Shown: positions 3,948 through 48,961 of the stretch, in pieces | Position numbering within the stretch: the stretch's first letter is position 1 | How the letters are laid out: the number at the start of each line of letters is the position of its first letter | Origin: an uncultured Hyphomicrobiales bacterium | Lineage (GTDB): Bacteria; Pseudomonadota; Alphaproteobacteria; Rhizobiales; Beijerinckiaceae | Direction: 5' to 3' | Assembly: GCA_903861645.1 (NCBI GenBank) | Contig: CAIOVE010000098.1 | Coordinates: 1-64,000 of the forward strand | Length of the DNA: 64,000 bases | Program-made: the position numbers and the translations under genes | The notes under the pieces: generated by a model | What the model was told of the DNA's origin: nothing | Seen by the model: the letters and a program-made list of their open reading frames with translations, nothing else | Databases searched by the model: none

Positions 3948-5006
3948 TCAGGCCTTGCCGTTGTTGACCCGCTCCGCGCCGGGATCGAGCGGCCAGCGCG
4001 GACGCGGGGCGAAGTCCATGCCATCGGTGAGGCCGAGCCGCAGGCGCTCGATACCGGCCCATGCGATCATGGCGCCATTGTCGGTGCACAGATTGAGCGG
4101 CGGCAGCGACAGACGCAGGCCGCTCTCCACCGCGAAGCGCGCCAGCGCCGCGCGCAGGGGACCATTGGCGGCGACCCCGCCCGCCACCACCAGCCCGCGC
4201 GGCGCGCCGGACTGTTCGCGGAACAGGCGCAGCGCCATCCGGGCGCGATCGATCACCACGTCGACGATCGCCGCCTGAAACGAAGCGCAGATGTCCTGAA
4301 TATCGGTGCGATTGGGCCGCCGCAGCTTGTCGACCTCGATCCGGACGGCCGTTTTCAGTCCGGACAGGGAAAAATCCGCGTTGGGCCGGCGCAGCATGGG
4401 CCGGGGAAACTCGAAACGCTGCGGGTCTCCCTGCGCGGCCTGCTTCTCCACTTGAGGGCCGCCGGGATAGGGCAGGCCGAGCATCTTGGCGACCTTGTCG
4501 AAGGCCTCGCCGATGGCGTCGTCGAGCGTCGTGCCGAGACGCCGGTATTCGCCCACGCCCAGCACGCCGATCAGTTGCGTATGCCCGCCGGAGGCCAGCA
4601 GCAGCAGATAGGGAAACTCCAGCCCATCCGTCAGCCGCGCGGTCAGGGCGTGGGCCTCCAGATGGTTGACCGCGATGAATGGCTTGCCGCTGGCGAGCGC
4701 GAGGCCCTTGCCCATGGTCAGGCCAACCATCACGCCGCCGATCAGGCCGGGGCCGGCCGCGGCGGCGACGCCGTCGAGATCGGCCAGTCGCAAGCCGGCT
4801 TTCGCCAGCGCCCGCGCGACGAGTTCGTCGAGATGCTCCACATGGGCTCGCGCGGCGATTTCAGGCACCACGCCGCCATAGGCCGCATGTTCGGCGATCT
4901 GGCTGACGACCTCGTCGGCGAGGATTTCGCCCTTTCCATCCGGTCCGGCGCGCACGATCGCCGCCGCCGTCTCGTCGCAGGTCGTTTCAATGCCCAGTAC
5001 GCGCAT
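3948..5006 (-). CDS. tsaD: tRNA N6-adenosine threonylcarbamoyltransferase
   Basis: TsaD (formerly YgjD/Gcp) transfers the threonylcarbamoyl group to A37 of ANN-decoding tRNAs, working with TsaB, TsaE and TsaC. The start is set by the family N terminus [18 protein letters not shown], giving 352 residues. Metal-binding histidines are seen in [10 protein letters not shown] (about His115 and His119). The sugar-kinase-fold motifs [11 protein letters not shown] (near 85) and [16 protein letters not shown] are present. The frame stays open far upstream, but that stretch lies opposite hemC and is not family sequence. It is divergent from hemC, with 99 bases between the start codons. Confidence 0.96.
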
Positions 5007-6776: not shown

Positions 6777-7826
6777 ATGTTCAGTCTTGGCGCCATCGGG
6801 AATTTGACGCGCGCAATTGGGGCGATCTTTTGTCTCGCGCTGTCGAACCCCACGCACGCCAGCGCCCAGACCGCGGACGACGCCTACTACAAGGGCAAGA
6901 CAGTTCGCATCGTCGTTGGCTATGGTCCCGGCGGCGGCTATGACATTTACGCGCGCATGATCGCGCCCTATCTCGCCAAGGCGCTCGGCGCGACCGTGGT
7001 GGTCGAGAACCAGCCCGGCGCCGGCGGCATCACCGCGCTCAACCGCATCATGACCGCGCCGCCCGATGGCTTGCAGATGATGCTCGTCAACGGATTGGGC
7101 GCCGCCTTCGCGCAACTCACCGAACAGCAGGGCGTGCGCTTTGATCTCGCGAAGCTCTCGCATCTCGGCACGGTCAGCGCGTCGCCATGGGTCTGGCTCG
7201 TTGGTCCCAACGCGACGATTGACACCCCGCAAAAGGCGCTGGAGGCGAAGCGGCGCTTCATGTGGTCGGCGAGCGGGCCGATTGACGGCCTGTCCGACGG
7301 CGCGGCGTTTTCCTGCGAGGCGCTCAGCCTCGATTGCGGCATCGTGCTTGGCTATCCCGGATCGAACGAGGCCGCGCTCGCGGTCGCCAAGGGCGAGATG
7401 GACATGATCTACGTGTCCGACACCTCGGCCAACAATTACGTCAAGGCCGGCCAGAACAAGGCGGTCGCCACCATGGGCCGCGTGCGCTCGCGGTTCTTCC
7501 CGGACACGCCGACGATTTTCGAGGCGGTCAAGCTGTCGCCAGATCGGGCGCAAATCTTCGATTTCCATTCAACGGCGGAAAACCTCGGCCGCATTCTCGT
7601 CGCGCCGCCGGGCCTGCCGCCGGAGCGCCTCGCCGCGCTGCGCGACGCTGTCAAGACCGCGCTCACCGATCCCGCCCTCGTCGCCGAGGGAGAAAAAACC
7701 CAGCGCTATGTCGATTTCATCGGCGCGGAGGAAACCCGCAAGGCGACCGTCAGCGTCGTCGCCGACCCGACGCCCGCGCAGAAGAAGCGGATGATGGAAA
7801 TCATCGCCAAGGCGGAAAAGAAATAG
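6777..7826 (+). CDS. Bug/TctC-family periplasmic binding protein (1 of 4)
   Basis: Tripartite-tricarboxylate-transporter-type (Bug) solute receptor of 349 residues with a signal peptide ending around ASA (residues 24-30). Family hallmarks are KTVRIVVGYGPGGGYDIYARMIAPYLAK with the ligand-loop glycines, VVENQPGAGGITALN, and the C-terminal DPALVAEGEKTQRYVDF. It has a good ribosome site (GGGAGG, about 6 bases before the ATG). No TctA or TctB membrane partner is nearby. Orphan Bug receptors are a known feature of several proteobacteria; the ligand cannot be read from the sequence. The YGPGGGYD variant is shared with the gene at 42542-43597, which suggests one subfamily. Confidence 0.88.
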   Translation: MFSLGAIGNLTRAIGAIFCLALSNPTHASAQTADDAYYKGKTVRIVVGYGPGGGYDIYARMIAPYLAKALGATVVVENQPGAGGITALNRIMTAPPDGLQMMLVNGLGAAFAQLTEQQGVRFDLAKLSHLGTVSASPWVWLVGPNATIDTPQKALEAKRRFMWSASGPIDGLSDGAAFSCEALSLDCGIVLGYPGSNEAALAVAKGEMDMIYVSDTSANNYVKAGQNKAVATMGRVRSRFFPDTPTIFEAVKLSPDRAQIFDFHSTAENLGRILVAPPGLPPERLAALRDAVKTALTDPALVAEGEKTQRYVDFIGAEETRKATVSVVADPTPAQKKRMMEIIAKAEKK

Positions 7827-25758: not shown

Positions 25759-26976
25759 ATGCAGACCGCGACTTTCGCGGCGACCGACGACGTAAAGGCC
25801 GAATACAAGACCCTCGGGCTGGTTTCCGCCGCGCATCTCGTCAGTCACCTCTACTGGATTGCCTTTGTTCCGTTGCTGCCGGACCTCAAGGCCCTGCTCG
25901 ACGTTTCCTACACCGACCTCGCGCTGGCGATGACGACCATGAACATCGTGTCCGCGCTGACTCAGGCGCCGACCGGCTTTCTGGTTGACCGACTGGGCGC
26001 GCGCGCGTTGCTCGTCGGCGGCCTGCTGCTCGGCGGCGCCTCCTTCGCGGCCATTGGCCTTTGGCCTTCCTATCCCGTGCTGATGATCGCCGCGGTCGCC
26101 ATCGGCCTCGCCAACGCGGTCTATCATCCAGCCGACTATTCGATCCTGTCGGCCGAGATGAGTCAGGCGCGCATGGGACGCGCCTTCTCGATTCACGCCT
26201 TCATGGGCTATCTCGGCTTCGCCGTCGCGCCGCCCATCCTGCTGGGCGCGGCGCATTTCGGCGGCGCGCGCGCCGCGCTGATCGTGTGTGGCCTGATCGG
26301 CCCGCTGGTGGCCTTGCCGCTCATGCCCGATTGCCGCGGCGAGCGCGACGGCGCCCGCGCGGCGGCGAAATCCGGCGCGCCCAAGGGCCCGTCCGCCCTG
26401 GCCTTGCTGACGCCCGCCGTCATCCTGCTGACGGTCATGTACACAATGCTCAACCTCGGCACGGGCATCCTTCAGACCTACATGGTCGTCGCCCTAGCCG
26501 ATCTGTTGCACCTGCCCAAGGCGACGGGCGACCTCTGCCTGACGCTGTTCCTCGTCGCGATGGTGATTGGCGTGCTCTCGGGCGGCTTTCTCGCCGATCG
26601 CGCGTCGCGCCAGTCGCTGGTCACAAGCGGCGGCTTTGGTCTGGCCGCGATCCTGATCGCATTGATCGGCGCCGTTGACCTTGGCGAACACCTGACGGTC
26701 GCGCTGCTGACGGCCGCGGGCTTCGTCGCCGGTCTCATCATGCCCTCGCGCGACATGCTGACCCGCGCCGCCTCGCCGCCTGGCGCGGTAGGTCGCGTGT
26801 TCGGCATCGTGACCACGGGCTTCAACTTCGGCGGCATGATAGGCCCGGTGCTTGGCGCCTGGCTGATCGACCATCACATGCCGCAATGGATTTTCTACAG
26901 CGCGGCGATCTTCATGGCGGTCACCATCGCGCTGGCGATCAAGGCCGACGTGGACGCTCAGCCCGCCCAGAAGTAA
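25759..26976 (+). CDS. MFS transporter
   Basis: Twelve-helix major facilitator superfamily permease of 405 residues. The loop 2-3 signature is seen in TGFLVDRLGARALLVGG (about residues 73-89). The central loop is at about 195-215 (CRGERDGARAAAKSG). It starts after GGGAGGGAT and follows the deacetylase closely, so it might export or import that enzyme's substrate. Its last 19 bases overlap the convergent gene. Drug, sugar or organic-acid specificity cannot be told. Confidence 0.88.
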   Translation: MQTATFAATDDVKAEYKTLGLVSAAHLVSHLYWIAFVPLLPDLKALLDVSYTDLALAMTTMNIVSALTQAPTGFLVDRLGARALLVGGLLLGGASFAAIGLWPSYPVLMIAAVAIGLANAVYHPADYSILSAEMSQARMGRAFSIHAFMGYLGFAVAPPILLGAAHFGGARAALIVCGLIGPLVALPLMPDCRGERDGARAAAKSGAPKGPSALALLTPAVILLTVMYTMLNLGTGILQTYMVVALADLLHLPKATGDLCLTLFLVAMVIGVLSGGFLADRASRQSLVTSGGFGLAAILIALIGAVDLGEHLTVALLTAAGFVAGLIMPSRDMLTRAASPPGAVGRVFGIVTTGFNFGGMIGPVLGAWLIDHHMPQWIFYSAAIFMAVTIALAIKADVDAQPAQK

Positions 26977-27497
26977 TGCCAGGTGCCGTCGGCGCCGATG
27001 CCGACGCGCTCGATCAGCGGCAGACCGATGTCGTTGGTGAGCAATAAGTTGGCGAAGCGCGCGCAGCGATACATCGCCAACCGCTCCTCCGCCGTCGGGT
27101 CCGGCTTTTGCCGCGCGGCGAAGGCCGGCCAGACGAACATCTCGACGGGTCCGCGGGTGACGCGGACGTAGGGTTGTTCGAGGATCGCGCCGAGCATCGC
27201 GAGAATTTCATGGCCCTTGCCGTCGAAGGATCGCGCCTTCAGGAAATCGACGGCCGCGGCGAAACCGACCGGTTTCGCGCCGCGCGCGAAAAGCGGCGGC
27301 GTTTCGTTGAATTCGATTACTGGCCGCAGGGCGTCGATGTCGCCGGTGGCGACCGCCGCCAGCATCCGCTCGCGCATGGCGCGCGCGCCCGCGGGCAGCG
27401 CTGCGAGATCATCGGAAGGGTCCGATATCGTCTCGACGTGCGCTGGCGCCGGTTTCGCGGCTTGTGAATGTCCGGGCGCATGGGGCGGCTTGGCCAT
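26958..27497 (-). CDS. Uncharacterised protein at the end of the urea operon
   Basis: A 179-residue soluble protein (ATG at 27497; a GTG 9 bases upstream is also possible). The N terminus is Pro/Ala-rich and disordered in character. A helical segment GARAMRERMLAAVATGDIDALRPVIEFN (about 38-65) follows, and then a globular part ending in IGADGTWHYFWAG. The DALRPVIEFNETPP segment resembles a helical repeat plus an SH3-like end. It starts 23 bases after ureC, so it is likely on the urea transcript. It is not any of UreE, UreF, UreG or UreJ. It overlaps the MFS gene by 19 bases at the 3' ends. Confidence 0.65.
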   Translation of the reverse strand: MAKPPHAPGHSQAAKPAPAHVETISDPSDDLAALPAGARAMRERMLAAVATGDIDALRPVIEFNETPPLFARGAKPVGFAAAVDFLKARSFDGKGHEILAMLGAILEQPYVRVTRGPVEMFVWPAFAARQKPDPTAEERLAMYRCARFANLLLTNDIGLPLIERVGIGADGTWHYFWAG

Positions 27498-27519
27498 GCC
27501 CCACACTTACCCGCGAGCG

Positions 27520-29232
27520 TCAGAACATGAAATAGCGCTGCGCCATCGGCAGGACATCGGCGGGCTGGCAGGTCAGCAGAACGCCATCGGCGATCACGGC
27601 GTAGGTCTCCGGATCGATGTCGATTTTCGGCGTCGCGCCGTTGTGGATCATGCTCGCCTTGGAAATGCCGCCGCGCGTGTTGTTGACGGCGACGAGGGGC
27701 TTTGACACGCGCAGCGCCGCCGCGAGCCCCTTGTCGAGCGAGGTTTGCGACACGAAGGTCAAGGACGTCGCCGCGATGGCGCGACCAAACGCGCCGAACA
27801 TCGGCCGATAATGCGTCGGCTGCGGCGTCGGGATCGACGCGTTGGGATCGCCCATGGGGGCGGCGGCGATCATGCCGCCCTTGATGATGAGGTCGGGCTT
27901 CACGCCGAAGAAGGACGGCGTCCACAACACGAGGTCGGCCAGCTTGCCCGCCTCGATGGAGCCGATGTGCTTCGACACGCCGTGCGCGATGGCGGGGTTG
28001 ATCGTGTATTTGGCGATGTAGCGCCGCGCGCGCATGTTGTCGTTGTCGCCCTTCTCGCCGGGCAGGGCGCCGCGCTGGCGCTTCATCTTGTCGGCGGTCT
28101 GCCACGTGCGAATGATGACCTCGCCGACGCGGCCCATGGCCTGCGAATCAGACGACATCATCGAGAGCGCGCCGAGATCGTGCAGAATATCCTCCGCCGC
28201 GATGGTCTCCTTGCGGATGCGGCTTTCCGCGAAGGCGAGATCCTCGGGGATCGAGCCATCGAGGTGATGGCAGACCATCAGCATGTCCAGATGCTCGTCG
28301 AGCGTGTTGCGCGTGAAGGGCCGCGTCGGATTCGTCGACGACGGCAGCACGTTGGGCAGGCCCGCGACGGACATGATGTCGGGCGCGTGGCCGCCGCCCG
28401 CGCCCTCGGTATGGAAGGCGTGGATCGTGCGGCCCTTGAAGGCCTTGATCGTCTCCTCGACGAAGCCCGATTCATTCAGCGTGTCGCTGTGCAGCATCAC
28501 CTGAATGTCGTGGTCGTCGGCGACCGACAGGCAGCAATCGATGGCGGCGGGCGTCGTGCCCCAGTCCTCGTGCAGTTTGAGCGCGCAGGCGCCGGCCTCG
28601 ATCTGTTCAACGAGGCCGCGCGGCGTCGCCGCGTTGCCCTTGCCGGCGAAGCCGAGGTTCATCGGAAACGAATCCGCCGCCTCGATCATCCGCGCGATGT
28701 GCCAGGGGCCCGGCGTGCAGGTGGTGGCGAAGGTGCCCGTCGCCGGGCCGGTGCCGCCGCCGAGCATGGAGGTGACGCCAGACATGAGCGCCTCCTCGAT
28801 CTGCTGCGGGCAGATGAAATGGATATGCGTGTCGAATCCGCCGGCGGTGAGAATCTTGCCTTCGCCCGCGATGATTTCCGTGCCCGGACCGATGACGATC
28901 GTCACGCCGGACTGGTTCTCGGGATTGCCCGCCTTGCCGATTGCCGCGATGCGCCCGTCGCGCAGGCCAACATCCGCCTTCACGACGCCCCAGTGGTCGA
29001 GAATGACGGCGTTGGTGATGACCGTGTCCATCGCGCCCTCGGCGCGCGAGGCCTGTGACTGGCCCATGCCGTCGCGAATGACCTTGCCGCCGCCGAATTT
29101 CACCTCCTCGCCGTAGGTGGTGAAGTCTTTCTCGATCTCGATGAACAGCGAGGTGTCGGCGAGGCGCACCTTGTCGCCGGTGGTGGGGCCGAACATGTCG
29201 GCGTAGGCGGCGCGGGTGAGGGTGGTGGACAT
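27520..29232 (-). CDS. ureC: Urease subunit alpha
   Basis: Catalytic subunit that hydrolyses urea to ammonia and carbamate at a dinickel site. The 570 residues match the family. Nickel-site sequences are visible: the carbamylated lysine in [15 protein letters not shown] (about residue 219), [37 protein letters not shown] (the mobile flap region with His about 324) and [18 protein letters not shown]. The N terminus [21 protein letters not shown] is standard. It lies 57 bases behind the fused ureAB. Confidence 0.98.
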
Positions 29233-29289
29233 GATGTACTTCCGCTGAAGCTGTTCTGATCGGTGCGGCGTTCGCCAACGGCGCGCGGG

Positions 29290-29910
29290 CTACAATTTCC
29301 CCATCACGTCCTGTCTGAATCCATACACTTCGCGACGGCCCTCGAAGGCGACGAGCCGCACCTCGCGCGACTGGCCGGGCTCGAAGCGCACGGCGGTGCC
29401 CGCCGCGATGTCGAGCCGCATGCCGCGCGCCAGCGCGCGGTCGAACACGAGCGCCGGATTGGTTTCGGCGAAATGGTAATGCGAGCCGACCTGTATCGGC
29501 CGGTCGCCGCTGTTGGAGACGCGCAGCGCGACCGTGGCGCGCCCGGCGTTTATGACGATGTCGCCCTCGGGCGTCGTCACCTCGCCCGGCGTGAAGGCGT
29601 GGCTGGAGCCGCGGATCGGGTTGTGAACCGTCACGAGCTTCGTGCCATCGGGAAAGGTCGCCTCCACCTGCACGTCGTGGATCATTTCGGCGATGCCCGG
29701 CATCACCTGATCCGCGCTGATGACATGCGCGCCGGCCTCCATGAGTTCGGCCACCGTGCGCCCGTCGCGCGCACCTTCCACGACGAAATCGGTGATCAGC
29801 GCGATCGCCTCGGGGTGGTTCAGCTTGACGCCGCGCTCGAGGCGACGGCGCGCCACGTTCGCCGCCATGGCGATCAGCAATTTATCTTTTTCACGCGGCG
29901 TCAGGTTCAT
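29290..29910 (-). CDS. ureAB: Fused urease gamma-beta subunit
   Basis: A single 206-residue protein that joins the gamma subunit (residues 1-100: [70 protein letters not shown]) to the beta subunit. The beta part starts near residue 104 with HAFTPGEV and includes [24 protein letters not shown] and the end [16 protein letters not shown]. No stop or frameshift separates them. Such fusions are known in Helicobacter (UreA) and some actinobacteria and alphaproteobacteria. Together with UreC it forms the urease trimer unit. Confidence 0.97.
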
Positions 29911-29928
29911 TGTTTTGTTCCGGTGTCG

Positions 29929-30768
29929 TCATTGCCAGACGCGGGGCGCCTCGCGTCCGCGCGTCGCCCGCAGCAAATGCACGATAGCAGTCCGCAGAAT
30001 TTCAGGCGATGGCGAAAGCAGGCGCGCCACCGCCATGCCGTTCCAGGCGCTCGCGCCCCATTCGCACGCGGTTGGCTCCAGCGCCGCGCGCAGGGCGTCG
30101 ATGGTGGCCTCGGCGTCCGGCGCGATATGCACGAAGGTCGCCGTCGCCCGCGCCTTGCGCCCGATCGCCGGCCGGTCGAGCAGGCCCGTCACGTCGCCGT
30201 CGACATTGGTGTCCTCGGCGAAAAGCAAACGCCGGTCGCGCCGGATGCGCCAGCGGTCGCGAAACGAACCCTCGACGCGCAATTCGCCCATGGCCATGCG
30301 GCCGAACGTGACGGCCTCCAGCAATGTGAGCGACGCGGAGGCGTCGAGATCGATGTCCAGTCGCCGGGTCAGGCGCGCGCCGTCGAACAGAATTGTTTCC
30401 TGCGGCAGCCATTCAAACCGCGCCCGCGCATCAAGGCGCAGACCGACGGAAATCTCGGCCGGTTCGTTCTGCGCGCGATAGATTTTCTCGGCGGACTGGG
30501 TCGTCATCGTCACGTCGCTGCCCTCGCCGGCGACAATGTCGAACGTGGCGCTGTCGCCGCCCGCGACGCCGCCGCCCGTGTTGACGATCACGCCCTCGCA
30601 GCCGCGCGCGACATTGGGGCATCGCAGGCGCAAGCCACCCGCCTCGAAGACGCGCGCCATTTCCGTGCGCGCGCCCACCGCGCGGAATTCCGCGCGGATT
30701 TCGCCGCGCGCCCGCGCGTGGGGCGGCACAAGTCCCGCGCCGTCAGACCGACATGTGTTTGCGGACAT
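29929..30768 (-). CDS. ureD: Urease accessory protein UreD
   Basis: Chaperone that binds apo-urease and with UreF and UreG delivers nickel to the active site. The 279 residues run from MSANTCRSDG; a GTG at 30729 would give 266. Family sequence includes ARARGEIRAEF, GVIVNTGGGVAGGDSATFDI (about 64-83), TQSAEKIYRA and RVEGSFRDRWRIRRDRRLLFAED. The preferred start overlaps the end of urtE by 26 bases, giving tight coupling of importer and enzyme. UreE, UreF and UreG are absent from the window and must be encoded elsewhere. Confidence 0.93.
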   Translation of the reverse strand: MSANTCRSDGAGLVPPHARARGEIRAEFRAVGARTEMARVFEAGGLRLRCPNVARGCEGVIVNTGGGVAGGDSATFDIVAGEGSDVTMTTQSAEKIYRAQNEPAEISVGLRLDARARFEWLPQETILFDGARLTRRLDIDLDASASLTLLEAVTFGRMAMGELRVEGSFRDRWRIRRDRRLLFAEDTNVDGDVTGLLDRPAIGRKARATATFVHIAPDAEATIDALRAALEPTACEWGASAWNGMAVARLLSPSPEILRTAIVHLLRATRGREAPRVWQ

Positions 30769-31438
30769 CCGATTCCACCATCGAGGCCCTGTCGCCCGAA
30801 AGAACGACCGCGCCGCGATCCATGACGACGAACGTGTCGGCGAGATCCCGCGCGAATTCAAAATATTGCTCGACCAGAACGATGGCCATGTCGCCCTTGC
30901 CGCGAAGATAGTCGATGGCGCGGCCAATGTCCTTGATGATCGAAGGCTGGATTCCCTCCGTGGGCTCGTCGAGCACCAGCAGACGCGGGCGCGTGACCAG
31001 CGCGCGGCCAATGGCGAGCTGTTGCTGTTGTCCGCCGGAAAGATCGCCGCCGCGTCGTCCCATCATGTCCTTGAGCACGGGAAACAGATCGAACACCTCG
31101 TTGGGTATGAAACGCTCCTTGCGTGGAACGGGCGCGAAGCCTGTTTCGAGATTTTCCTTCACCGTCAGCAGGGGAAAGATTTCGCGGCCCTGCGGTACGT
31201 AGGCGATGCCGCGCGCGGCGCGCGCGTGCGGCGACAGTTTCGACACGTCGGCGCCCTGCCAGCCGATGCTTCCGGCTGCGATGGGCTGATGGCCGATGAT
31301 GGCGCGCATGAGCGATGTCTTGCCGACGCCGTTGCGGCCGAGCACGCAGGTGACCTTGCCCGGCGTGGCGGCCAATGACACGCCGCGCAGGGCCCGCGCC
31401 GCGCCGTAGAAAAGATCGATCGATTCAACGTTCAGCAT
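30743..31438 (-). CDS. urtE: Urea ABC transporter ATP-binding protein UrtE
   Basis: Second ATPase of the urea importer, LivF-like, 231 residues. Walker A GRNGVGKTSL (about 34-43), signature LSGGQQQQLAIGRAL, Walker B RLLVLDEPTEGIQPSII and a switch histidine region AIVLVEQYFEFARDLAD are all present. The EGIQPSIIKDI segment after Walker B is typical of UrtE. It starts one base after the urtD stop. Confidence 0.97.
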   Translation of the reverse strand: MLNVESIDLFYGAARALRGVSLAATPGKVTCVLGRNGVGKTSLMRAIIGHQPIAAGSIGWQGADVSKLSPHARAARGIAYVPQGREIFPLLTVKENLETGFAPVPRKERFIPNEVFDLFPVLKDMMGRRGGDLSGGQQQQLAIGRALVTRPRLLVLDEPTEGIQPSIIKDIGRAIDYLRGKGDMAIVLVEQYFEFARDLADTFVVMDRGAVVLSGDRASMVESDVRKHMSV

Positions 31439-31439
31439 G

Positions 31440-32207
31440 TCATCGCCCGAGATAGACTTCGATCACGCGGGGGTCCGCGCTGACATCGTCGAGGTTGCCC
31501 TCCGCGAGCACGGACCCTTCGTGCAGCACGGTGACCTTGACGCCGAGATCGCGCACGAAGGTCATGTCGTGCTCGACGACCACGACGGAATGATCCCTGG
31601 CGATCTCGCGCAGCAGAATGGCGGTTTGCGCCGTCTCGGCGTCGGTCATGCCGGCGACGGGCTCGTCGACGAGCAGCAGCTTGGGATCCTGCGCGAGCAA
31701 CATGCCGATTTCCAGCCATTGCTTCTGTCCATGCGACAGATCGGCGGCGAGGCGGTCGCGATGATCCTTCAGGCGGGTCGTTTCGAGGATCTGGTCGATG
31801 CGCTCGCGTTCGTCGACGGGCGGCTTGCCGAACAGGGTCGCGAAGGCCTTGCGCGGCGCCTTGAGCGCCAGCAGGATGTTGTCGCGGACGGTGTGGCTTT
31901 CAAACACCGTGGGCTTCTGGAATTTGCGGCCGATGCCGAGTTCCGCGATGGTCGCCTCGTCGAGTTTCGACAGATCATGCGTGCCGGCGAAATAAACATC
32001 GCCGGTGTCGGCGCGCGTCTTGCCGGTGATGATGTCCATCATCGTGGTCTTGCCCGCGCCATTGGGTCCGATGATGGCGCGCATCTCGCCCGGCGCGAGC
32101 ACGAGGGAAAGGCCACGCAAGGCCTTGTATCCATCGAAGCTGACGGCGACGCCATCGAGATAAAGCAACGATGACGTGAGCGCGGGATTGTCCGAGGCGA
32201 TGCTCAT
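31440..32207 (-). CDS. urtD: Urea ABC transporter ATP-binding protein UrtD
   Basis: First ATPase of the urea importer, LivG-like, 255 residues. The ATG overlaps the urtC stop (ATGA). Walker A is GPNGAGKTTMMDIITGK (about 47-63). The signature helix is LSHGQKQWLEIGMLL, the UrtD-type variation of LSGGQ, followed by LLLVDEPVAGMTDAET. The FQKPTVFESHTVRDNILLAL Q-loop region is typical of the branched-chain/urea ATPase group. Confidence 0.97.
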   Translation of the reverse strand: MSIASDNPALTSSLLYLDGVAVSFDGYKALRGLSLVLAPGEMRAIIGPNGAGKTTMMDIITGKTRADTGDVYFAGTHDLSKLDEATIAELGIGRKFQKPTVFESHTVRDNILLALKAPRKAFATLFGKPPVDERERIDQILETTRLKDHRDRLAADLSHGQKQWLEIGMLLAQDPKLLLVDEPVAGMTDAETAQTAILLREIARDHSVVVVEHDMTFVRDLGVKVTVLHEGSVLAEGNLDDVSADPRVIEVYLGR

Positions 32208-33328
32208 GACTGGGCCTCCGTGACGGAAACGGGCGCGTCGGGCGCGGCTTGTCGGCGCTGGAAGCGCGAGAACAATCCAAGCAGCCCCTTGGGCATGAAC
32301 ACCGTGACAAGAATGAACAGTAGGCCGAGGGCGAACAGCCAGAACGATGGCAACACGCCGGTGAACCACGTCTTGGCGAAGTTGACGAGGATCGCTCCCA
32401 GCGCCGCGCCAACGAGCGTGCCGCGCCCGCCGACCGAGACCCAGATCACCGCCTCGATGGAATTGGCGGGCGCGAATTCACCGGGGTTGATGATGCCGAC
32501 CTGCGGCACGTACAGCGCGCCGGCGACGCCGGCCATCATGGCCGACACGGTGAAGACGACGAGTTTGTAGGACTCTACGCGGTAACCCAGAAAGCGCGTG
32601 CGCGATTCAGCGTCGCGAATGGCGATCACGACCTTGCCGAATTTCGACACGACCATCGCCCGCGCGATCAGATAAGCGCCGACGAGGGCCAACGCGGAAA
32701 GGGAGAACAATGTCGCGCGCGTGGCGTCCGACTGCACGTTGAAGCCGAGAATGTCCTTGAAATCGGTCAGGCCGTTGTTGCCGCCAAGCCCCATGTCGTT
32801 GCGGAAAAACGCCAGTTGCAGGGCGTAGGTCATGGCCTGCGTGATGATGGACAGATAGACGCCCGTCACGCGCGAGCGGAAGGCGAGCCAGCCGAAGGCG
32901 AAGGCCAGCACGCCCGGCACGAGCAGCACCATGACGGCGGCGTAGGGGAACCAGTTGAAGCCCCACCACGCGACCGGCAGCGCCTTGTAGTTCAGGAACA
33001 CCATGAAATCCGGCAATAGCGGATTGGCGTAGACGCCACGCGGGCCGATCTGCCGCATGAGATACATGCCCATCGCGTAACCGCCGAGAGCGAAGAAGGC
33101 GCCATGGCCAAGCGATAGAATGCCGCAGTAGCCCCACACAAGGTCGAGCGCCAGCGCGAGCATCGCGAAGCAGAGATACTTGCCCATGAGCGCCACCAGA
33201 TAGGGCGGCACGTGCAGCGCCGAGCCGGTGGGCGTCGCCAGCGCGAGCACGGGCACGATGATGGCCGCCGCGACGAGGATGGCGACGAAGACGAGGCCGC
33301 GCGTGTCGAGAAGACGGTTGGCGTTCAT
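32204..33328 (-). CDS. urtC: Urea ABC transporter permease UrtC
   Basis: LivM-like integral membrane subunit, 374 residues with about 9-10 helices. The conserved region LVWGYCGILSLGHGAFFALGGYAMGMYL (about 63-90) and the EAA-like cytoplasmic loop IRDAESRTRFLGYRVESYKL are recognisable. UrtC family members have the long YANPLLPDFMVFLNYKALPVAWWGF insertion seen here. It starts one base after the urtB stop. Confidence 0.97.
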   Translation of the reverse strand: MNANRLLDTRGLVFVAILVAAAIIVPVLALATPTGSALHVPPYLVALMGKYLCFAMLALALDLVWGYCGILSLGHGAFFALGGYAMGMYLMRQIGPRGVYANPLLPDFMVFLNYKALPVAWWGFNWFPYAAVMVLLVPGVLAFAFGWLAFRSRVTGVYLSIITQAMTYALQLAFFRNDMGLGGNNGLTDFKDILGFNVQSDATRATLFSLSALALVGAYLIARAMVVSKFGKVVIAIRDAESRTRFLGYRVESYKLVVFTVSAMMAGVAGALYVPQVGIINPGEFAPANSIEAVIWVSVGGRGTLVGAALGAILVNFAKTWFTGVLPSFWLFALGLLFILVTVFMPKGLLGLFSRFQRRQAAPDAPVSVTEAQS

Positions 33329-33329
33329 G

Positions 33330-34955
33330 TCACGCCTCCACCGCGCGGCCCTTGAGCGCGAAGAGTCCGCGCGGGCGTTTTTGAATGAACAGGATGATGA
33401 AGATCAGCAGCGCGATCTTGCCGAGAACGGCGCCGATCAACGGTTCGAGGAACTTGTTGGCGATGCCCAGCGTCAGCGCCGCCACCAGGGTGCCCCAGAG
33501 GTTGCCGACGCCGCCGAACACCACGACGAGGAAACTGTCGATGATGTAGGACTGGCCAAGATTGGGCGACACGTTGTCGATCTGCGAGAGCGCCACGCCG
33601 GCCATGCCGGCGATGCCCGATCCCAGCCCGAAGGCGAGCGCGTCGATGCGGTTGGTGTCGATGCCCATGGCCGAGGCCATGCGCCGGTTCTGCGTGACCG
33701 CGCGAATGCGCAGTCCGAAGGATGTCGCGCGCAACACGAGTTGCAGGGCCACGAACACGGCCATGGCGAACACGATGATCCACATGCGGCCCGACGTGAT
33801 GGCGAGGCCGCCGAAGTCGAACGAACCGGCCATGAAGGCGGGCGCGCCAACCTCGCGGTTGTTCGCGCCGAAAACGGAGCGAACCGCCGGTTGCAGGATG
33901 AGCGACAGGCCGAAGGTCGCCAGCAGTGTTTCAAGCGGACGGCCATATAGGAAGCGGATGATCGAGCGCTCGATCACGACGCCGATGAAGCCGGTCACGA
34001 GGAAGGCGAGGGGAATGGCGATGAACAGCGAATAGTTGAACAGCTCTGGCTTGTAGGCCTTGATGGCCTCCTGCGTCACGAAGGTCGTGTAGGCGCCGAG
34101 CATCACCATTTCGCCATGCGCCATGTTGATGACGCCCATGACGCCGAAGGTGATCGCGAGCCCGATCGCCGCGAGCAGCAAGACCGAGCCGAGCGACAGG
34201 CCGTAAAAAACATTTTGGAGGTTGTTCCAAAGCGCGAGTTTCGACTGAATGGCCGCCGTGGCGTTGGCAGCGGCGGTCTTGACGCGCCCTTGCGACGCGG
34301 CGACGAGTTCGTTCAAAAGGCCAACAGAGTCCTGATCGCCCCGCGCGTTCAGCGTGTTGACGGCCGCGAGCCGATCGGCCTCGGGGGCGTCCGATTGCAT
34401 GACGATGATCGCCGCGCGCGCCTCTGCAAGCGCCTGCTTGACGCGCGCGGTCTTTTCCGCGGCGATGGCCGCGTCGAGTTGCGGCAGCGACGCGGGGTCG
34501 CGGGATTTGAAAATCGTCTCGGCGGCGTCGATGCGGGCCTTGGGGTCGGGCACCATGAGGCTCATCGAGCCGCGCGCTGTCTCCAGCGCCGCGCGCACCG
34601 CGTTGTTCACGCGCACCTTCTTGAGATCGTCGGGTGAATCGACGTTCGCTTTTTCGCCCGTGCGCGCGTCAACGAGATTGTCGGCGCCATCCGACACGTA
34701 AAGCTTGTTCTCGTCGGAGTCGAACAACAGACGCCCCTCGGCGAGCGCGTCGAACAACTTGGGCGCGATGGGGGCGCCCGAGGCGATGAGTTCGCCGATC
34801 GCGGCCTGGGTGTCGGGAAACTTGTCGGTGGTGAATTTCGCCAGCGTATCGTCGAGCGCGTCCGCCATGGCAAGCGAGGCGAACATCATGGCGCAAAGCG
34901 CGAAAAACACCGTTGCGATCGGGCGCGTGACCCGCCGCTTGCATTGAACCATCAT
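33330..34955 (-). CDS. urtB: Urea ABC transporter permease UrtB
   Basis: LivH-like permease, 541 residues. A signal-anchor (ATVFFALCAMMFASLAMA) is followed by a soluble helical region of about 200 residues (25-235), then the membrane domain from LWNNLQNVFYGLSLGSVLLLAAIG. The long N-terminal extension is a hallmark of UrtB against other LivH proteins. Conserved AHGEMVMLGAYTTFVTQ and VTQNRRMASAMGIDTNRIDALAFGLGSGIAG are seen. Two adjacent ATG codons (34955, 34952) are possible starts. Confidence 0.96.
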   Translation of the reverse strand: MMVQCKRRVTRPIATVFFALCAMMFASLAMADALDDTLAKFTTDKFPDTQAAIGELIASGAPIAPKLFDALAEGRLLFDSDENKLYVSDGADNLVDARTGEKANVDSPDDLKKVRVNNAVRAALETARGSMSLMVPDPKARIDAAETIFKSRDPASLPQLDAAIAAEKTARVKQALAEARAAIIVMQSDAPEADRLAAVNTLNARGDQDSVGLLNELVAASQGRVKTAAANATAAIQSKLALWNNLQNVFYGLSLGSVLLLAAIGLAITFGVMGVINMAHGEMVMLGAYTTFVTQEAIKAYKPELFNYSLFIAIPLAFLVTGFIGVVIERSIIRFLYGRPLETLLATFGLSLILQPAVRSVFGANNREVGAPAFMAGSFDFGGLAITSGRMWIIVFAMAVFVALQLVLRATSFGLRIRAVTQNRRMASAMGIDTNRIDALAFGLGSGIAGMAGVALSQIDNVSPNLGQSYIIDSFLVVVFGGVGNLWGTLVAALTLGIANKFLEPLIGAVLGKIALLIFIILFIQKRPRGLFALKGRAVEA

Positions 34956-35077
34956 CTTGCTGTTCCGGGTCCGTCCCTTTGGATATTGAAGCCCGGCCCG
35001 AATGAAGGGCGCTGGGCGTTTTGTCATCATGGCGGCCGCGGGACACCGGGCGCGCCATGCGCCACTGGTCGCGTGAC

Positions 35078-35299
35078 TTATTCGACCTCTGGGAAATCGA
35101 AGGCGCTGAGCTTTTGACCGTTCGCGCCATCCGGCGTTTCCGCGCGGGTGGCGATGGAAAGTCCCGTCAACAGGAAGGCGAAGAACAGAAGGCCGAACAC
35201 GAAACCCGCGAGATCGAAAAACGCGCTCTTGCCATTCACCTGGCGCCGTGCCAGCGCGATACCGCGCTCATGAGCCATCATTGTCGGTTCGATGCGCAT
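35078..35299 (-). CDS. Small single-pass membrane protein between urtA and urtB
   Basis: A 73-residue product starting MRIEPTMMAHERGIALA after an excellent AAGGAGATCGG ribosome site. A single membrane helix lies at about residues 28-46 (LAGFVFGLLFFAFLLTGLS), with a basic region before it and an acidic, polar tail after it. It sits 87 bases after urtA and 122 bases before urtB on the same strand. The standard urt operon lacks such a protein, so it may be a lineage-specific accessory of the importer or an assembly factor. Its function is unknown. An upstream ATG in frame (MKEIG) is possible. Confidence 0.7.
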   Translation of the reverse strand: MRIEPTMMAHERGIALARRQVNGKSAFFDLAGFVFGLLFFAFLLTGLSIATRAETPDGANGQKLSAFDFPEVE

Positions 35300-35348
35300 T
35301 CCGATCTCCTTCATGGGCCGTGAAAGACATGCCGAAAGCAATTGGGGC

Positions 35349-35372
35349 GGACGGAAGGCGCGCCTTCCGTCC
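35349..35372. terminator. Intercistronic hairpin after urtA
   Basis: Perfect 24-bp palindrome with half-site GGACGGAAGGCG (35349-35360), mirrored to 35372, 14 bases after the urtA stop. On the minus (operon) strand it is not followed by a T-run, so it is more likely an mRNA-stabilising hairpin or a leaky stop that keeps the binding-protein mRNA abundant over the permease genes. On the plus strand GGTTTTT follows. Confidence 0.7.
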
Positions 35373-35386
35373 GGTTTTTCATGCAA

Positions 35387-36694
35387 TCAGTTGGTGGCCT
35401 TGCCGCCGCACTTGCCGGTCTTGACGTTCAGGTTTCCGCAAGAGAGCGGCTTGCGCCAATCGGCGATCAGGTCGCGCGAACCTTCGAGGTAGGGCGACCA
35501 TTCCTGCGCCACCACGGTGCCCGGCGTCTGCCAGACCGTGTTGATCTGGCCGTTGCCCTGGATTTCGCCAATCAGCACCGGCTTGGTGATGTGGTGGTTC
35601 GGCATCATGGTCGAGGTTCCGCCGGTGAGGTTCGGCACGGAAACGCCAACCATCGCGTCGATGACCGCGTCCGGATCGGTCGTGCCGGCCTTCTCGATGG
35701 CCTTGATCCACATATTGAAGCCGATCACGTGGGCTTCCATGGGGTCGTTGGTGGTGCGCTTCGGATTCTTGGTGAACTCCTTCCAGCGCTTGATGAACGC
35801 CTTGTTGTCCTTGTTGTCGACGGACTCGAAGTAGTTCCAGGCGGCGAGATGGCCGACGAGCGGCTTGGTGTCGATGCCCGCGAGTTCTTCCTCGCCGACC
35901 GAGAACGCGACGACCGGGATATCGGTGGCCTTGATGCCGGCGTTGGCGAGCTGCTTGTAGAAGGGAACGTTCGCGTCGCCATTGATGGTCGACACAACCG
36001 CGGTCTTCTTGCCGGCCGAGCCGAACTTCTTGATGTCGGCGACGATCGTCTGCCAATCGGAATGACCGAACGGCGTGTAGTTGATCATGATGTCTTCGGC
36101 GGCGACGCCCTTGGCCTTCAGATAGGCCTCGAGAATTTTGTTGGTGGTGCGCGGATAGACATAGTCGGTGCCGGCGAGCACCCAGCGCTTCACCGAGCCG
36201 CCTTCCTTGCTCATCAAATAGTCAACGGCCGGAATAGCCTGCTGATTGGGCGCGGCGCCCGTATAGAAGACGTTCCGCTGCGATTCCTCGCCTTCGTATT
36301 GCACGGGGTAGAACAGGATCGAGTTCAACTCCTCGAAAACCGGCAGCACGGACTTGCGCGAAACCGAGGTCCAGCAACCGAAAACGGCCGCGACCTTGTC
36401 CTTGGCGACGAGCTCGCGCGCCTTTTCAGCGAACAGCGGCCAGTTGGAGGCCGGGTCGACGACGACGGCTTCCAGCTTCTTGCCGAGCACGCCGCCCTTC
36501 TTGTTTTGCTCGTCGATGAGCATCAGCATGACGTCCTTCAGCGTGGTTTCGCTGATCGCCATCGTGCCGGAAAGTGAATGGAGAATGCCAACCTTGATGG
36601 TGTCGGCCGCCTGGGCGCCGAACGACGCGAGCGTTACCGCGCCTCCTACGAGCGCGCCCGTGGCGCGCAGCATGGTTCGCCTTGAGAAGTTCAT
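35387..36694 (-). CDS. urtA: Urea ABC transporter substrate-binding protein UrtA
   Basis: Periplasmic urea receptor of 435 residues. It starts MNFSRRTMLRATG, a twin-arginine-like signal, after AAGGGGA at 8 bases. The mature domain begins DTIKVGILHSLSGTMAISETTLKD and contains the UrtA-type ELNSILFYPVQYEGEESQRNVFYTGAAPNQQAIPA (about 125-158) and VLAGTDYVYPRTTNKILE. It is the first gene of the urt-ure operon, 70 bases below a sigma-54-type promoter. Confidence 0.97.
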   Translation of the reverse strand: MNFSRRTMLRATGALVGGAVTLASFGAQAADTIKVGILHSLSGTMAISETTLKDVMLMLIDEQNKKGGVLGKKLEAVVVDPASNWPLFAEKARELVAKDKVAAVFGCWTSVSRKSVLPVFEELNSILFYPVQYEGEESQRNVFYTGAAPNQQAIPAVDYLMSKEGGSVKRWVLAGTDYVYPRTTNKILEAYLKAKGVAAEDIMINYTPFGHSDWQTIVADIKKFGSAGKKTAVVSTINGDANVPFYKQLANAGIKATDIPVVAFSVGEEELAGIDTKPLVGHLAAWNYFESVDNKDNKAFIKRWKEFTKNPKRTTNDPMEAHVIGFNMWIKAIEKAGTTDPDAVIDAMVGVSVPNLTGGTSTMMPNHHITKPVLIGEIQGNGQINTVWQTPGTVVAQEWSPYLEGSRDLIADWRKPLSCGNLNVKTGKCGGKATN

Positions 36695-36763
36695 ACGCGT
36701 CCCCTTGAGTAAGGCCGGCTTTTGCCGGGTCATTGGTTTGGTCCGGATGGACGTTTACGAGTT

Positions 36764-36779
36764 AGCAACCCCTGTGCCA
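36764..36779 (-). promoter_or_regulatory. Sigma-54 (RpoN) -24/-12 promoter of the urt-ure operon
   Basis: On the minus strand the sequence reads TGGCACAGGGGTTGCT: TGGCAC, then a five-base spacer, then TTGCT. This matches the RpoN consensus TGGCAC-N5-TTGCW at all defined positions, with the invariant GG and GC 12 bases apart. Transcription would start near 36753 and give a leader of about 59 bases before the urtA ATG. RpoN promoters need an activator such as NtrC, which fits nitrogen-limited expression of urea uptake. Confidence 0.85.
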
Positions 36780-36900
36780 TGAACGCGGAGCCCTTCGTTT
36801 CATCGCTTTTGGGGCGTTTATTGCGCGGTCGCCTGTTTTCTGGGCGAAGTGGCCAGCGCGGCGGCGAGCGACCAGGGATTGTTCGATGGCGTCGATATCG

Positions 36901-36915
36901 GCCTAATTGTTAGGC
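36901..36915. promoter_or_regulatory. Inverted repeat in the urtA-Bug intergenic region
   Basis: GCCTAA-TTG-TTAGGC, a perfect 6-bp inverted repeat, lies 112 bases before the Bug gene start and about 120 bases upstream of the sigma-54 box. It could be an operator or activator site for either direction. It does not match the NtrC consensus. Confidence 0.35.
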
Positions 36916-37026
36916 GGTATTGCGCCTTGTGGTTATTTTCTAGGCGCGTTGACGACTGGGGGCCACCATGGACAAGCGTGCGCGCGCGGCTAAGCTGTGG
37001 CGAAAGAGGTCTTGGGAGGGACGGAA

Positions 37027-38001
37027 ATGCGGATCGACCGGAGAAGTCTGACATGTGGTCTGGCGGCGGCCGTCGCCTCGCCCTTGCTGGCGCGGGGGCA
37101 GACAGGCTGGCCAGCGGGCCGGACGATCCGGATCGTGGTGCCGTTCACGCCGGGCGGGGCCACCGACATCATCGCGCGCATCGTCGGCGACAAGCTCGGA
37201 CGCATGTGGGGCGCTTCCGTCATCGTCGAGAACAAGGCTGGCGGCGGCGCGAACATTGGCGCCGAGGCGGTGGCCCACGCCACGCCCAATGGCGACACCT
37301 TCGTGATGACGGCGCCTTTCATGGCGCTCAATCAATATCTCTACAAGAAGCTCCAGTACGATCCCGCCGAGGATTTCACCCATGTCTCGCTGGTGGCGCT
37401 CGTGCCCAACATGCTGGTCGCCGGCAAGCATCTCAACATTTCGACGGTCGGCGATCTCATCGCCCATGGCAAGGCGCATCAGGGCCAATTGACCTACGCC
37501 TCGTCGGGCGTTGGCACGTCGATCCATCTGGCTGGCGAGCTCTTCAAGAAAATGACGGGCGTCGACATGGTGCACGTGCCCTACCGGGGCAGCGCGCCCG
37601 CCATTCAGGACATCATCGGCGGCAGGGTCGACGTGATGTTCGACAACATCACCTCCTCGCTCGAACAGGTCCGTTCGGGCCAGCTCAAGGGCATCGCCAT
37701 CACCACGGCGAAGCGCTCCAAGCTCGCGCCCGAATTGCCGCCCGTCGCCGACACGGTTCCCGGCTACGACGTGAGTTCGTGGTTCGGCTTTTCCGCGCCG
37801 CGCAAGACACCCGCCGACATTGTCGAGCGCTTCGCCGCCGACGTGAAGACCGCCATCGCCGATCCCGACGTGCGCGCCAGGCTGGAAGGTCTCGCCGCCG
37901 AGCCCATTGGTTCCACGCCCGCCGAATTCACCGCCTTCATCAAGAAGGAAAGCGGCGTTTGGGGCAAGCTCATCACCGAGCAGGGCATCACGGCGGAATA
38001 G
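37027..38001 (+). CDS. Bug/TctC-family periplasmic binding protein (2 of 4)
   Basis: A 324-residue Bug receptor with an N-terminal RRSLTCGLAAAVASPLLARG export signal (twin-arginine-like). Family motifs are IRIVVPFTPGGATDIIARIVGDKLGRMWG (about 30-58), VIVENKAGGGANIGAEAVA, TYASSGVGTSIHLAGELF and VHVPYRGSAPAIQDIIGGRVDVMFDN. The complete motif set places it in the classical Bug group. There is no transporter membrane gene nearby. It is divergent from the urea operon and could be an unrelated carboxylate sensor. Confidence 0.93.
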   Translation: MRIDRRSLTCGLAAAVASPLLARGQTGWPAGRTIRIVVPFTPGGATDIIARIVGDKLGRMWGASVIVENKAGGGANIGAEAVAHATPNGDTFVMTAPFMALNQYLYKKLQYDPAEDFTHVSLVALVPNMLVAGKHLNISTVGDLIAHGKAHQGQLTYASSGVGTSIHLAGELFKKMTGVDMVHVPYRGSAPAIQDIIGGRVDVMFDNITSSLEQVRSGQLKGIAITTAKRSKLAPELPPVADTVPGYDVSSWFGFSAPRKTPADIVERFAADVKTAIADPDVRARLEGLAAEPIGSTPAEFTAFIKKESGVWGKLITEQGITAE

Positions 38002-46129: not shown

Positions 46130-48961
46130 ATGAGCCTTGCCCTTCCAGAAACCGTCGCCACGAGCCGCGCCCGCGCGCGCGCCGCCGGCCCAAGATCCAT
46201 CATCGACGTCGCCCTGCTCGACGCCGACATCGATAGTCTCGCGCGCATCCATTCGGGGTCGCCCGACATTTTGCGCAAGGCCGTCGTCGATCGCCTGCGC
46301 AGCGCTCTCGATATCGGTCGGGAGAAAGCCCGCGCCTGGCTGGAGGCCGATGGCCGCGGCATGGCCTGCGCCACGCAGATATCGCTGCTGGAGGATGAGA
46401 TCATCCGGGCGATCCATCGCTATGTCACCCGCTACGTCTATCCCGCCATCAATCCATCCTCGGCCGAGCGCCTCGCGATCGCCGCCGTCGGCGGCTATGG
46501 CCGCGGCACGCTGGCCCCCGGCTCCGATATCGATCTGCTGTTCCTGCTGCCTTACAAGCAAACGGCATGGGGCGAGAGCGTCGTCGAGGCGATGCTCTAT
46601 ATACTGTGGGATCTCAAGCAGAAGGTCGGCCACTCGACCCGTTCCGTCGATGAATGCGTGCGACAGGCGCGCGACGACATGACGATCCGCACGGCGATGC
46701 TGGAGGCGCGCCTGATTCTCGGCGACGAAGGCCTGTTCGAGGAAATGCGACAGCGTTTCGACAAGGAGATCGTGCGTGGCACGGCGCGCGAGTTCGCCGC
46801 GGCCAAGCTCGCCGAGCGCGACGCCCGCATCAAGCGCGCCGGCACCTCGCGCTACCTCGTCGAGCCCAACGTCAAGGAGAGCAAGGGCGGCCTGCGCGAT
46901 CTCAACACGCTGTTCTGGATCGCCAAGTATGTCTATCGCGTGCGCGATGTTTCGGAACTTGTCGCCGCGGGTCTTTTCACGACGCGCGAGCTTCAACTGT
47001 TCCTGCGGTGCGAGGAGTTTCTGTGGCGCGTGCGCTGCCATCTTCACTTCATCACCGGACGCGCCGAGGACCGGCTTTCATTCGATCAGCAGCGCGGCGT
47101 CGCCACCCGTCTCGGCTATGTCACGCGCGACGGAATGAGCGACGTCGAGCGCTTCATGAAGCACTATTTCCTCGTCGCCAAGGATGTCGGCGATCTCACC
47201 GCCATCGTCTGCGCGGCGCTGGAGGAAAAGCACGCCAAGCCGCGCGCCGTTCTCGACCGTTTCATGGGCGGGTTGCGCCGTCGGTCCTCGCCGATCAAGG
47301 AACCCGGTTTCGCCAGCGAACACGGGCGCATCACGGTTGACGGCGCGAGCGTCTTCGAGCGCGATCCCACGAACATCATCCGGCTGTTCGCGCTCGCGCA
47401 TCGCAACGGCCTCGCCATTCACCCCGACGCCGCGCGCCTTGTCACGCGTTCGTTGAAGCTGATCGACGCGAAGGCGCGCGCCGACAAGGCCGCGAACGCG
47501 CTTTTCCTCGATATTCTGACGTCGAAGGATTCGCCGGAGACGATCCTGCGACAGATGAACGAGGCCGGCGTTCTCGGCCGCTTCATTCCCGAGTTCGGAC
47601 GCATCGTCGCGATGATGCAGTTCAACATGTATCATCACTACACGGTCGACGAACATCTGCTTTACGCGATGGGCATTCTCGCGGGCATCGAGGCGGGCAG
47701 CCTGAAGGAGGACCATCCGCTCGCCAGCGAAATGCTTGGCTCGATCGTCAATCGCCGCGCGCTTTACGTGGCCCTGTTCCTTCACGACGTCGCCAAGGGC
47801 CGCAAGGAGGACCATTCGATCGCCGGCGCCCGCGTGGCGCGCGAGCTTTGTCCGCGCCTAGGCCTGACCGACGCGGAGACCGAGACGGTCGCATGGCTCA
47901 TCGAAAATCATCTGGTCATGTCGGACACCGCGCAAAGCCGCGATCTGAGCGATCCCCGCACCATTCAGGCCTTCGCCGCGACGGTGCAGACGCTGGAGCG
48001 TCTGCGCCTGCTGCTGGTGCTGACCGTGTGCGACATTCGCGCCGTCGGGCCGGGCGTCTGGAACGGCTGGAAGGGGCAATTGCTGCGCACCCTCTACTGG
48101 GAGACGGAGGTCGTGCTGGCCGGCGGCCATTCCGCCATCAACCGCAACGCGCGCGTGCAGGCCTCCATGCGCGAATTGCGCGACGCGCTCGCGACCTGGT
48201 CCGATCCGGATTTCGAGGCCTACGCCGCGCGGCATTATCCCGCCTACTGGCTACGCGCCGATCTGCCGCACAAGATCGCCCATGCCCAGCTTCTCCGCCT
48301 CGTCGACGTCGAGGTGAAGTCGCTGATGACGGAATATTCGACCGACGCGTTTCGCGGCGTGACCGAACTGACGGTGATCGCGCCCGATCATCCGCGGCTG
48401 CTGTCGATCATCGCGGGCGCTTGCGCCGCGGCCGGCGCCAACATCGTCGACGCGCAGATTTTCACGACCACCGATGGCCTCGCGCTCGACACTATTTTCA
48501 TAAATCGCGGCTTCGAGCGCGACGAGGACGAGATGCGTCGCGCCAGCCGCGTCGCCCAGACCATCGAAAAGACCCTTCGCGGCGAAATGCGTCTTGGCGA
48601 AGCGGTCGCCGCGCGCGGGCAGGGCTCGACGGCGCCCAGGCCCTTCGTCATCGCGCCCGAGGCGGTCATCGACAACAACCTGTCGAACCAGTACACGGTC
48701 ATTCAGGTGTCCGGCCTCGATCGCGCGGGCCTGCTCTACGATCTCACCGCCGCCCTGTCCGATCTAAGCCTGAACATCGGCTCGGCCCATGTCGTGACCT
48801 TCGGCGAGCGGGCGGTCGACGTGTTCTACGTCACCGACCTGACCGGCGCGAAGATCGTTTCGCCGGAGCGGCAGGCGTCGATCCGCGAGCGCATGCTGGG
48901 GGTGTTCAACCCCTCGGAGCAGGCGGGCAAACCCCGCCGCGCCCGACCCGCCGCGGGCTGA
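46130..48961 (+). CDS. glnD: Bifunctional PII uridylyltransferase / uridylyl-removing enzyme
   Basis: GlnD senses glutamine and adds or removes UMP on PII proteins, thereby setting NtrBC and glutamine-synthetase activity. At 943 residues it has the full set: the nucleotidyltransferase motif [18 protein letters not shown] (about 121-138), an HD hydrolase domain ([17 protein letters not shown], about 545-561) and two ACT domains near 745-820 and 855-930. It links with the sigma-54-type promoter of the urea operon in the same window. It is followed after 74 bases by grpE. Confidence 0.98.

Follow-up and report, generated by a model that had tools for sequence, protein, structure and literature searches.

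The locus raises the question of whether urea import and urea hydrolysis in this bacterium are controlled together, and by which switch. The window, that is, the whole 64-kb stretch of DNA analysed, had been described in a first-pass annotation as carrying a minus-strand urea transporter and urease unit under a near-exact RpoN promoter. Profile libraries and inspection of the reading frames gave the gene order claimed there, with ten minus-strand genes running from 36694 to 26958. These are urtA for the urea-binding protein (35387..36694), a small open reading frame (ORF) of 78 amino acids (35078..35314), the permease genes urtB (33330..34953) and urtC (32204..33328), the ATPase genes urtD (31440..32207) and urtE (30743..31438), the accessory gene ureD (29929..30729), a fused ureAB encoding the gamma and beta subunits (29290..29910), ureC for the alpha subunit (27520..29232), and a last gene (26958..27497). 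All five Urt subunits scored above their NCBIfam family cut-offs (score/cut-off in bits: UrtA, 560/493; UrtB, 418/250; UrtC, 433/296; UrtD, 372/304; UrtE, 346/286), as did the fused UreAB against PRK13192 (306/243) and UreC against TIGR01792 (968/680), and UreD was identified by Pfam. Neither the small ORF nor the last gene had a match at an E value of 0.001 or below in the NCBIfam-type or Pfam library. The structural subunits of urease are complete, and ureC is present in a single copy in the genome.

The likely start of urtA is ATG 36694, which is preceded by AGGGGA; an in-frame ATG upstream, at 36733, has no such motif. UrtB has a long N-terminal extension, and its start is uncertain. The junctions of 1 to 4 bases noted earlier were found from urtB to urtE (1 nt between urtB and urtC, a 4-nt overlap between urtC and urtD, and 1 nt between urtD and urtE). 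An overlap into ureD had also been claimed, but the likeliest start of this gene, GTG 30729, leaves 13 nt after urtE. The gap between ureAB and ureC is 57 nt.

The sequence TGGCACAGGGGTTGCT at 36779-36764 on the minus strand (36764..36779) faces urtA and is the sole zero-mismatch match to TGGCAYRNNNNTTGCW in the 64-kb window, so that the promoter earlier called near-exact is an exact match. It has the GG and GC dinucleotides of the -24 and -12 elements at their fixed spacing and is close to the sigma-54 promoter consensus, printed as YTGGCACGrNNNTTGCW in PMC13207237. From this box, transcription would start near 36753, which would place ATG 36694 about 59 nt downstream. The genome of 4.18 Mb contains the exact pattern TGGCACNNNNNTTGCW six times and the reversed pattern twice; the other five exact matches lie before or beside genes for an NMT1_2-family binding protein, dctA, a GST-family protein, a creatininase-family protein and an NMT1-family binding protein. 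A single match to rpoN was found in the genome, with AID, CBD and DBD domains.

Boxes were scored with weights set by hand from the sigma-54 consensus, not fitted, and boxes scoring at least 17 are frequent by chance, with seven in the 64-kb window. Conservation was evaluated by searching for urtA in the genome itself and 100 relatives, 98 of the 101 giving some match. The 67 upstream stretches that were scored came from the genome itself and 66 relatives; three fragments without the N-terminus (G002, G030 and G038), G025 and G035, and genomes with distant homologues only were left out. A box of at least 17 within 160 nt of the urtA start was present in 61 of the 67 stretches, own included: the genome itself (1/1), all members of the genus (42/42) and family (4/4), and 14 of the 20 order-level relatives, the remaining 6 of these 20 having none. 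One order-level box, that of L074 (17.0), is probably a chance match. Among dinucleotide shuffles 2.0% reached the threshold. That the urtA box itself arose by chance, with a sigma-70 promoter driving the operon, might be argued from the loose matches to the pattern (at most 2 mismatches), which are common in the window, although at 15 they are not enriched over the 20.0 expected. The match at urtA is exact and retained in relatives, and control stretches reached 17 in 0/67 cases on the opposite strand and in 0/64 distal stretches; a chance origin is highly improbable.

Contigs of named genomes gave a wider view. The best 80 of 597 relatives were taken, and 79 were scorable; 57 of these reached a box of at least 17, 43 of them together with a palindrome (described below) of at least 8, and 22 had no box. 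At least four named loci match contigs of G017, G026, G037 and G043 in length and are not independent. Within this best 80 of 597, the box was found in all seven Mesorhizobium loci and was absent from all 14 scored records of Sinorhizobium, Ensifer, Shinella, Agrobacterium, Neorhizobium, Rhizobium and Rhizobiaceae, as well as from eight further named loci. For a further record from the Rhizobiaceae, L205, the upstream DNA was too short to score. The locus L145 ("Rhizobium sp. Q54"), outside these 14, has the box and is equal in length to G037:C3, which belongs to a congener of the organism studied here.

Sigma-54 promoters at nitrogen genes raise the question of the activator, and a scan for NtrC enhancers had been proposed in the first-pass annotation. 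The enterobacterial NtrC consensus is TGCAC-N7-GTGCA. At 8 or more of its 10 letters it was present in 16 of 61 loci against about 8.2 expected, a weak enrichment at best, and as a candidate enhancer it was set aside in favor of a palindrome found de novo. The de novo search, with no preset motif, in the 61 stretches upstream of the box yielded TGCCTAAAATTTAGGCA. In the first search, the palindromes obtained at widths of 15, 16 and 18 were A/T-rich or weaker. At a width of 17 the motif came from one of two seeds, and it was regained with 6 to 8 seeds on two split sets. The window has three such palindromes, of the TGCCTA-N5-TAGGCA type and listed without strand, starting 67 to 167 nt before the box. 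These putative NtrC sites are CGCCTAGAAAATAACCA (site 1, 36930..36946, starting 167 nt upstream of the box), CGCCTAACAATTAGGCC (site 2, 36900..36916, 137 nt) and CGCCCAGAAAACAGGCG (site 3, 36830..36846, 67 nt), which rank 2, 1 and 5, respectively, in the 64-kb window under a matrix derived from 41 congeners, the genome under study being kept out of the training set.

The palindrome fit for the 41 congeners was 461, compared with 228 to 235 in four shuffled sets (6 seeds versus 3 per set). A matrix built from 18 loci outside the genus placed a site of at least 8 ahead of the box in 35 of the 41 congeners and in none of 39 control stretches; with this matrix, the 36900 site ranks fourth in the window, and the 36930 and 36830 sites score 6.1 and 7.1. 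A blind scan of the genome for exact GCCTAN5TAGGC gave three places, namely, urtA (the 36900 site), nirA and the inside of the gene immediately upstream of rpoN. When one mismatch was tolerated, matches were fewer than for the backward control (88 versus 186), so that weak palindrome matches mean nothing.

Pairs of a palindrome (at least 7) and a box (at least 17) spaced 20 to 220 nt apart were then counted in 179,311 bases of the own genome, a count that is not blind, as the stretches were picked partly for containing boxes or PII genes. Three pairs were found at urtA, one at glnK-amtB, two at a second amtB, one at nirA, one at an NMT1-family ABC gene (L090) and one at L088, where no nitrogen gene was recognised; six mononucleotide shuffles gave none. 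The boxes of glnK-amtB (TGGCACGGCCCTTGAT) and the second amtB (TGGCATATTTTTTGTA) are imperfect, without a proper -12 GC. A palindrome at the right spacing accompanies only two of the genome's six exact boxes (urtA and L090). Another palindrome, with no box, was found 100 nt upstream of a gene (dusB-like, as judged by eye) that itself precedes ntrB-ntrC. Direct sigma-54 control of urtA, as claimed earlier, is strongly supported as a prediction, because both the box and the upstream palindrome are conserved and the palindrome also marks glnK-amtB, the second amtB and nirA.

The genes glnK-amtB, amtB, nirA and the ntrBC group are usually under NtrC. Since the genes paired with the palindrome belong to this set (see also PMC5343134), the palindrome is most likely an NtrC site. 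The NtrC of this genome scored above its equivalog cut-off (695/559 bits) and has the GAFTGA motif; NtrX lacks it. The presence of GAFTGA matters because the NtrC proteins of Caulobacter and Rhodobacter capsulatus, which lack it, were reported to work with sigma-70 (PMC10274813). A third GAFTGA-bearing response regulator, encoded on contig C5, could instead be the activator at a correctly assigned sigma-54 promoter, as its receiver, sigma-54 domain and Fis helix-turn-helix are all present along with the GAFTGA motif. It scored 425 bits, below the NtrC cut-off of 559, and the recurrence of the palindrome at glnK-amtB, the second amtB, nirA and the ntrBC gene group argues against it; this regulator may act at dctA, where the box is not accompanied by a palindrome. 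We consider it improbable as the activator of urtA and retain NtrC in that role. The gene glnD, cited earlier as a neighbor from the same regulatory cascade, is real (46130-48961), but its distance of 9.4 kb proves nothing.

Related arrangements are known. In cyanobacteria, UrtABCDE-urease clusters are under NtcA, with the same transporter family and the same nitrogen-limitation logic; unlike the system here, NtcA is a CRP-type activator and does not involve sigma-54. In Bradyrhizobium sp. DOA9, urtA-D and ureA-D were strongly down in rpoN mutants, and the -24/-12 box TGGCATGGTTCTTGC is listed for urtA (PMC13207237); the same 15 letters are present in L066. The DOA9 urtA-B-C promoter in the RpoN regulon thus resembles the one here in having a -24/-12 box at urtA, but DOA9 belongs to another genus, and we found no activator or activator site named for urtA in that study (PMC13207237). 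In a comparative genomics study, ureABC and urtABCDEF were assigned to NtrC in four orders, including Rhizobiales (PMC5343134). This predicted regulon of Rhizobiales and Rhodobacterales, like the locus here, places urease and urea ABC transporter genes under NtrC, but we found neither motif letters nor the present genome in the account of it (PMC5343134). According to a 2025 survey, urease genes are controlled by sigma-54 chiefly in alpha- and betaproteobacteria (PMC12316311). For the urea genes of relatives, both a dependence on RpoN and a predicted control by NtrC are therefore already published (PMC13207237, PMC5343134), and the sigma-54 model earlier put forward as specific and testable is largely established for relatives already.

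Whether all genes of the operon follow this promoter equally was considered from the DNA between urtA and urtB. An 11-pair hairpin was predicted by folding directly 3' of urtA (35348..35373, minus strand), and a fold with z below -2, relative to mononucleotide shuffles, was found behind urtA in 21 of the 29 stretches folded, taken from this genome and its kin. Hairpins in other binding-protein operons can protect the mRNA and allow an excess of binding protein. By analogy, mRNA protection and an excess of UrtA are a more likely role here than termination, since the sense strand behind the hairpin has no U tract. Equal output of all operon genes would be unlikely given this hairpin. Inspection by eye showed, in 11 of the 29 loci including the own, a short independent ORF between urtA and urtB that has a single hydrophobic stretch. 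Compared with L017, the small ORF (41% identity) and the UrtB N-terminus (37%) change fast, and UrtA is 95% identical.

The hairpin, together with the 57-nt gap before ureC, which leaves room for an internal promoter, might also mean that the two halves are uncoupled, with the sigma-54 promoter serving mainly urtA and the ure genes transcribed from an internal constitutive promoter. The missing U tract speaks against this, as do the tight junctions from urtB to ureD and the position of ureD behind urtE in 15 of 17 relatives' stretches. There were 0 sigma-70-like matches in 26500-37100, though shuffles average just 1.4, and ureA-D fell together with urtA-D in the DOA9 rpoN mutants (PMC13207237). 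Such uncoupling is unlikely, and a transcript from urtA that would reach ureC is the preferred reading.

The remaining accessory genes are elsewhere. A genome search placed ureF outside the window, on a separate contig, C32, which carries ureE, ureF, a DUF3995 gene and ureG. Neither a box of at least 17 nor a palindrome was found in the roughly 130 nt ahead of ureE or close by. The earlier statement that importer and enzyme are made together is therefore incomplete: it would apply to the urt genes, the urease structural genes and ureD, which are in the unit, but not to ureE, ureF and ureG. In relatives, ureE and ureF follow ureC in the same orientation in 14 of 17 longer stretches, with a ureC-ureE gap of up to about 2 kb, and ureG also follows in 13 of the 17. 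Of the remaining three, L124 ends in ureAB, L125 shows nothing of the ure set after urtE, and in L121 a ureC remnant and ureE are all that is present. Among 18 congener ureC loci, from genomes partly shared with these stretches, ureE follows in 13. The five others are L236, L237 (a divergent copy with a ureE match on the other side), L240 (divergent, then ureF and ureG), and L241 and L242, which are fragments without the ureC end. In the closest relative, G015, ureE lies within about 30 nt after ureC.

The gene behind ureG on C32 is also behind ureG in G033, and the TctC gene before urtA is also before urtA in G048. These shared neighbors are the reason for placing the break between ureC and ureE, and by gene order the operon is a truncated one. 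A misassembly at the junction of ureC and the last gene may be considered; the two junctions are each well within a long contig (151 and 91 kb) and fall between intact genes. A search for a published split of ureABC from ureEFG gave nothing to the point among the titles and abstract openings listed. We tentatively suggest, at somewhat less than even odds, that a clean break between ureC and ureE in this lineage removed the nickel-loading genes from the NtrC/sigma-54 operon, so that urease would be made on starvation and activated by UreEFG, whose supply would be under separate control and possibly constant.

The last gene, the end of the unit as first described, does adjoin ureC on the same strand; it starts at ATG 27497, 22 nt behind ureC, and similarity to the G015 copy begins at that ATG (by eye). 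Homologues were found in 62 of the 101 genomes, counting this one; the relatives' urt-ure stretches that were read contained none. Across 14 homologue loci with flanks of at most 1.5 kb, the MFS and deacetylase-like genes that flank it here recur in G015 and G048, and G050 has the MFS gene alongside, giving an MFS neighbor in three congeners; the other 11 of these loci had no MFS match within those flanks, and a TctC-family gene was close to the homologue in 10 of the 14. The deacetylase-like and dusB-like names of neighbors were judged by eye. On these neighbors in relatives, a role of the last gene in urea use was dropped. It is probably a passenger that came to adjoin ureC through the rearrangement, and it may now be cotranscribed with the operon.

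Taken as a whole, the locus is very probably a nitrogen-scavenging operon with an NtrC and sigma-54 switch acting from urtA to ureC, a hairpin favoring UrtA, and UreEFG supplied from a switchless locus. When nitrogen is short, phosphorylated NtrC would occupy the three palindromes that lie ahead of the -24/-12 box, and its GAFTGA loop would open the RNA polymerase held at the box by sigma-54. Transcription from urtA through ureC would then yield an importer with high affinity for urea as well as the urease body plus UreD, and the hairpin behind urtA would probably allow an excess of UrtA. UreE, UreF and UreG for nickel loading would be supplied by the separate locus.

The analysis sharpens a known picture and opens no new one; its oddity is that the nickel-insertion genes have moved elsewhere. 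It proposes TGCCTA-N5-TAGGCA as the letters that NtrC probably recognises in a large genus, in which urea uptake, ammonium uptake and nitrite reduction would be tied to one predicted switch, and it flags a genome where the urease maturation genes appear to have left that switch. If this last point is true, the regulation and maturation of one enzyme would have been uncoupled by a rearrangement, offering a natural test of whether accessory protein supply limits urease.

The minus-strand urea operon contains a small ORF with one hydrophobic stretch (35078-35314, minus strand) between urtA and urtB, and the sequence of this ORF diverges very rapidly. A separate short ORF occupies the urtA-urtB interval in 11 of 29 loci, as judged by eye. 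In other loci, a similar hydrophobic stretch is found in the N-terminus of UrtB. The N-terminal 250 residues of the UrtB encoded at 33330-34953 (minus strand) form an extension, which shares 37% identity with that of the closest relative; UrtA shares 95%.

Elsewhere in the genome, contig C32 encodes a UreE with a long histidine-rich tail (L083, 7238-7870). Two sigma-54 boxes, scoring 19.8 and 19.5, lie back to back on opposite strands at 4050-4082 of stretch L088, with a GST-family gene on one side and a gene beginning MLYDAYQ on the other. A strong palindrome (score, 12.5) is located at 6866-6882 of the rpoN region (L091), within a predicted gene that directly precedes rpoN; no box was found at the right spacing from the palindrome.

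In the congener G022, a ureC remnant of 69 residues lies behind urtE (L121, 8104-8310). A divergent ureC (69% identity) is located on another contig (L237). Together, the two copies perhaps indicate urease replacement in the congener.

Among the urtA loci on named contigs (best 80 of 597 relatives, 79 scored), the sigma-54 box was present in 57 of 79. It was absent in all 14 Rhizobiaceae loci scored (L158, L160, L163, L170, L173, L174, L181, L186, L187, L194, L203, L210, L215, and L219), a count that leaves out Mesorhizobium. This absence may reflect a lineage-wide loss or rewiring at urtA in the Rhizobiaceae.
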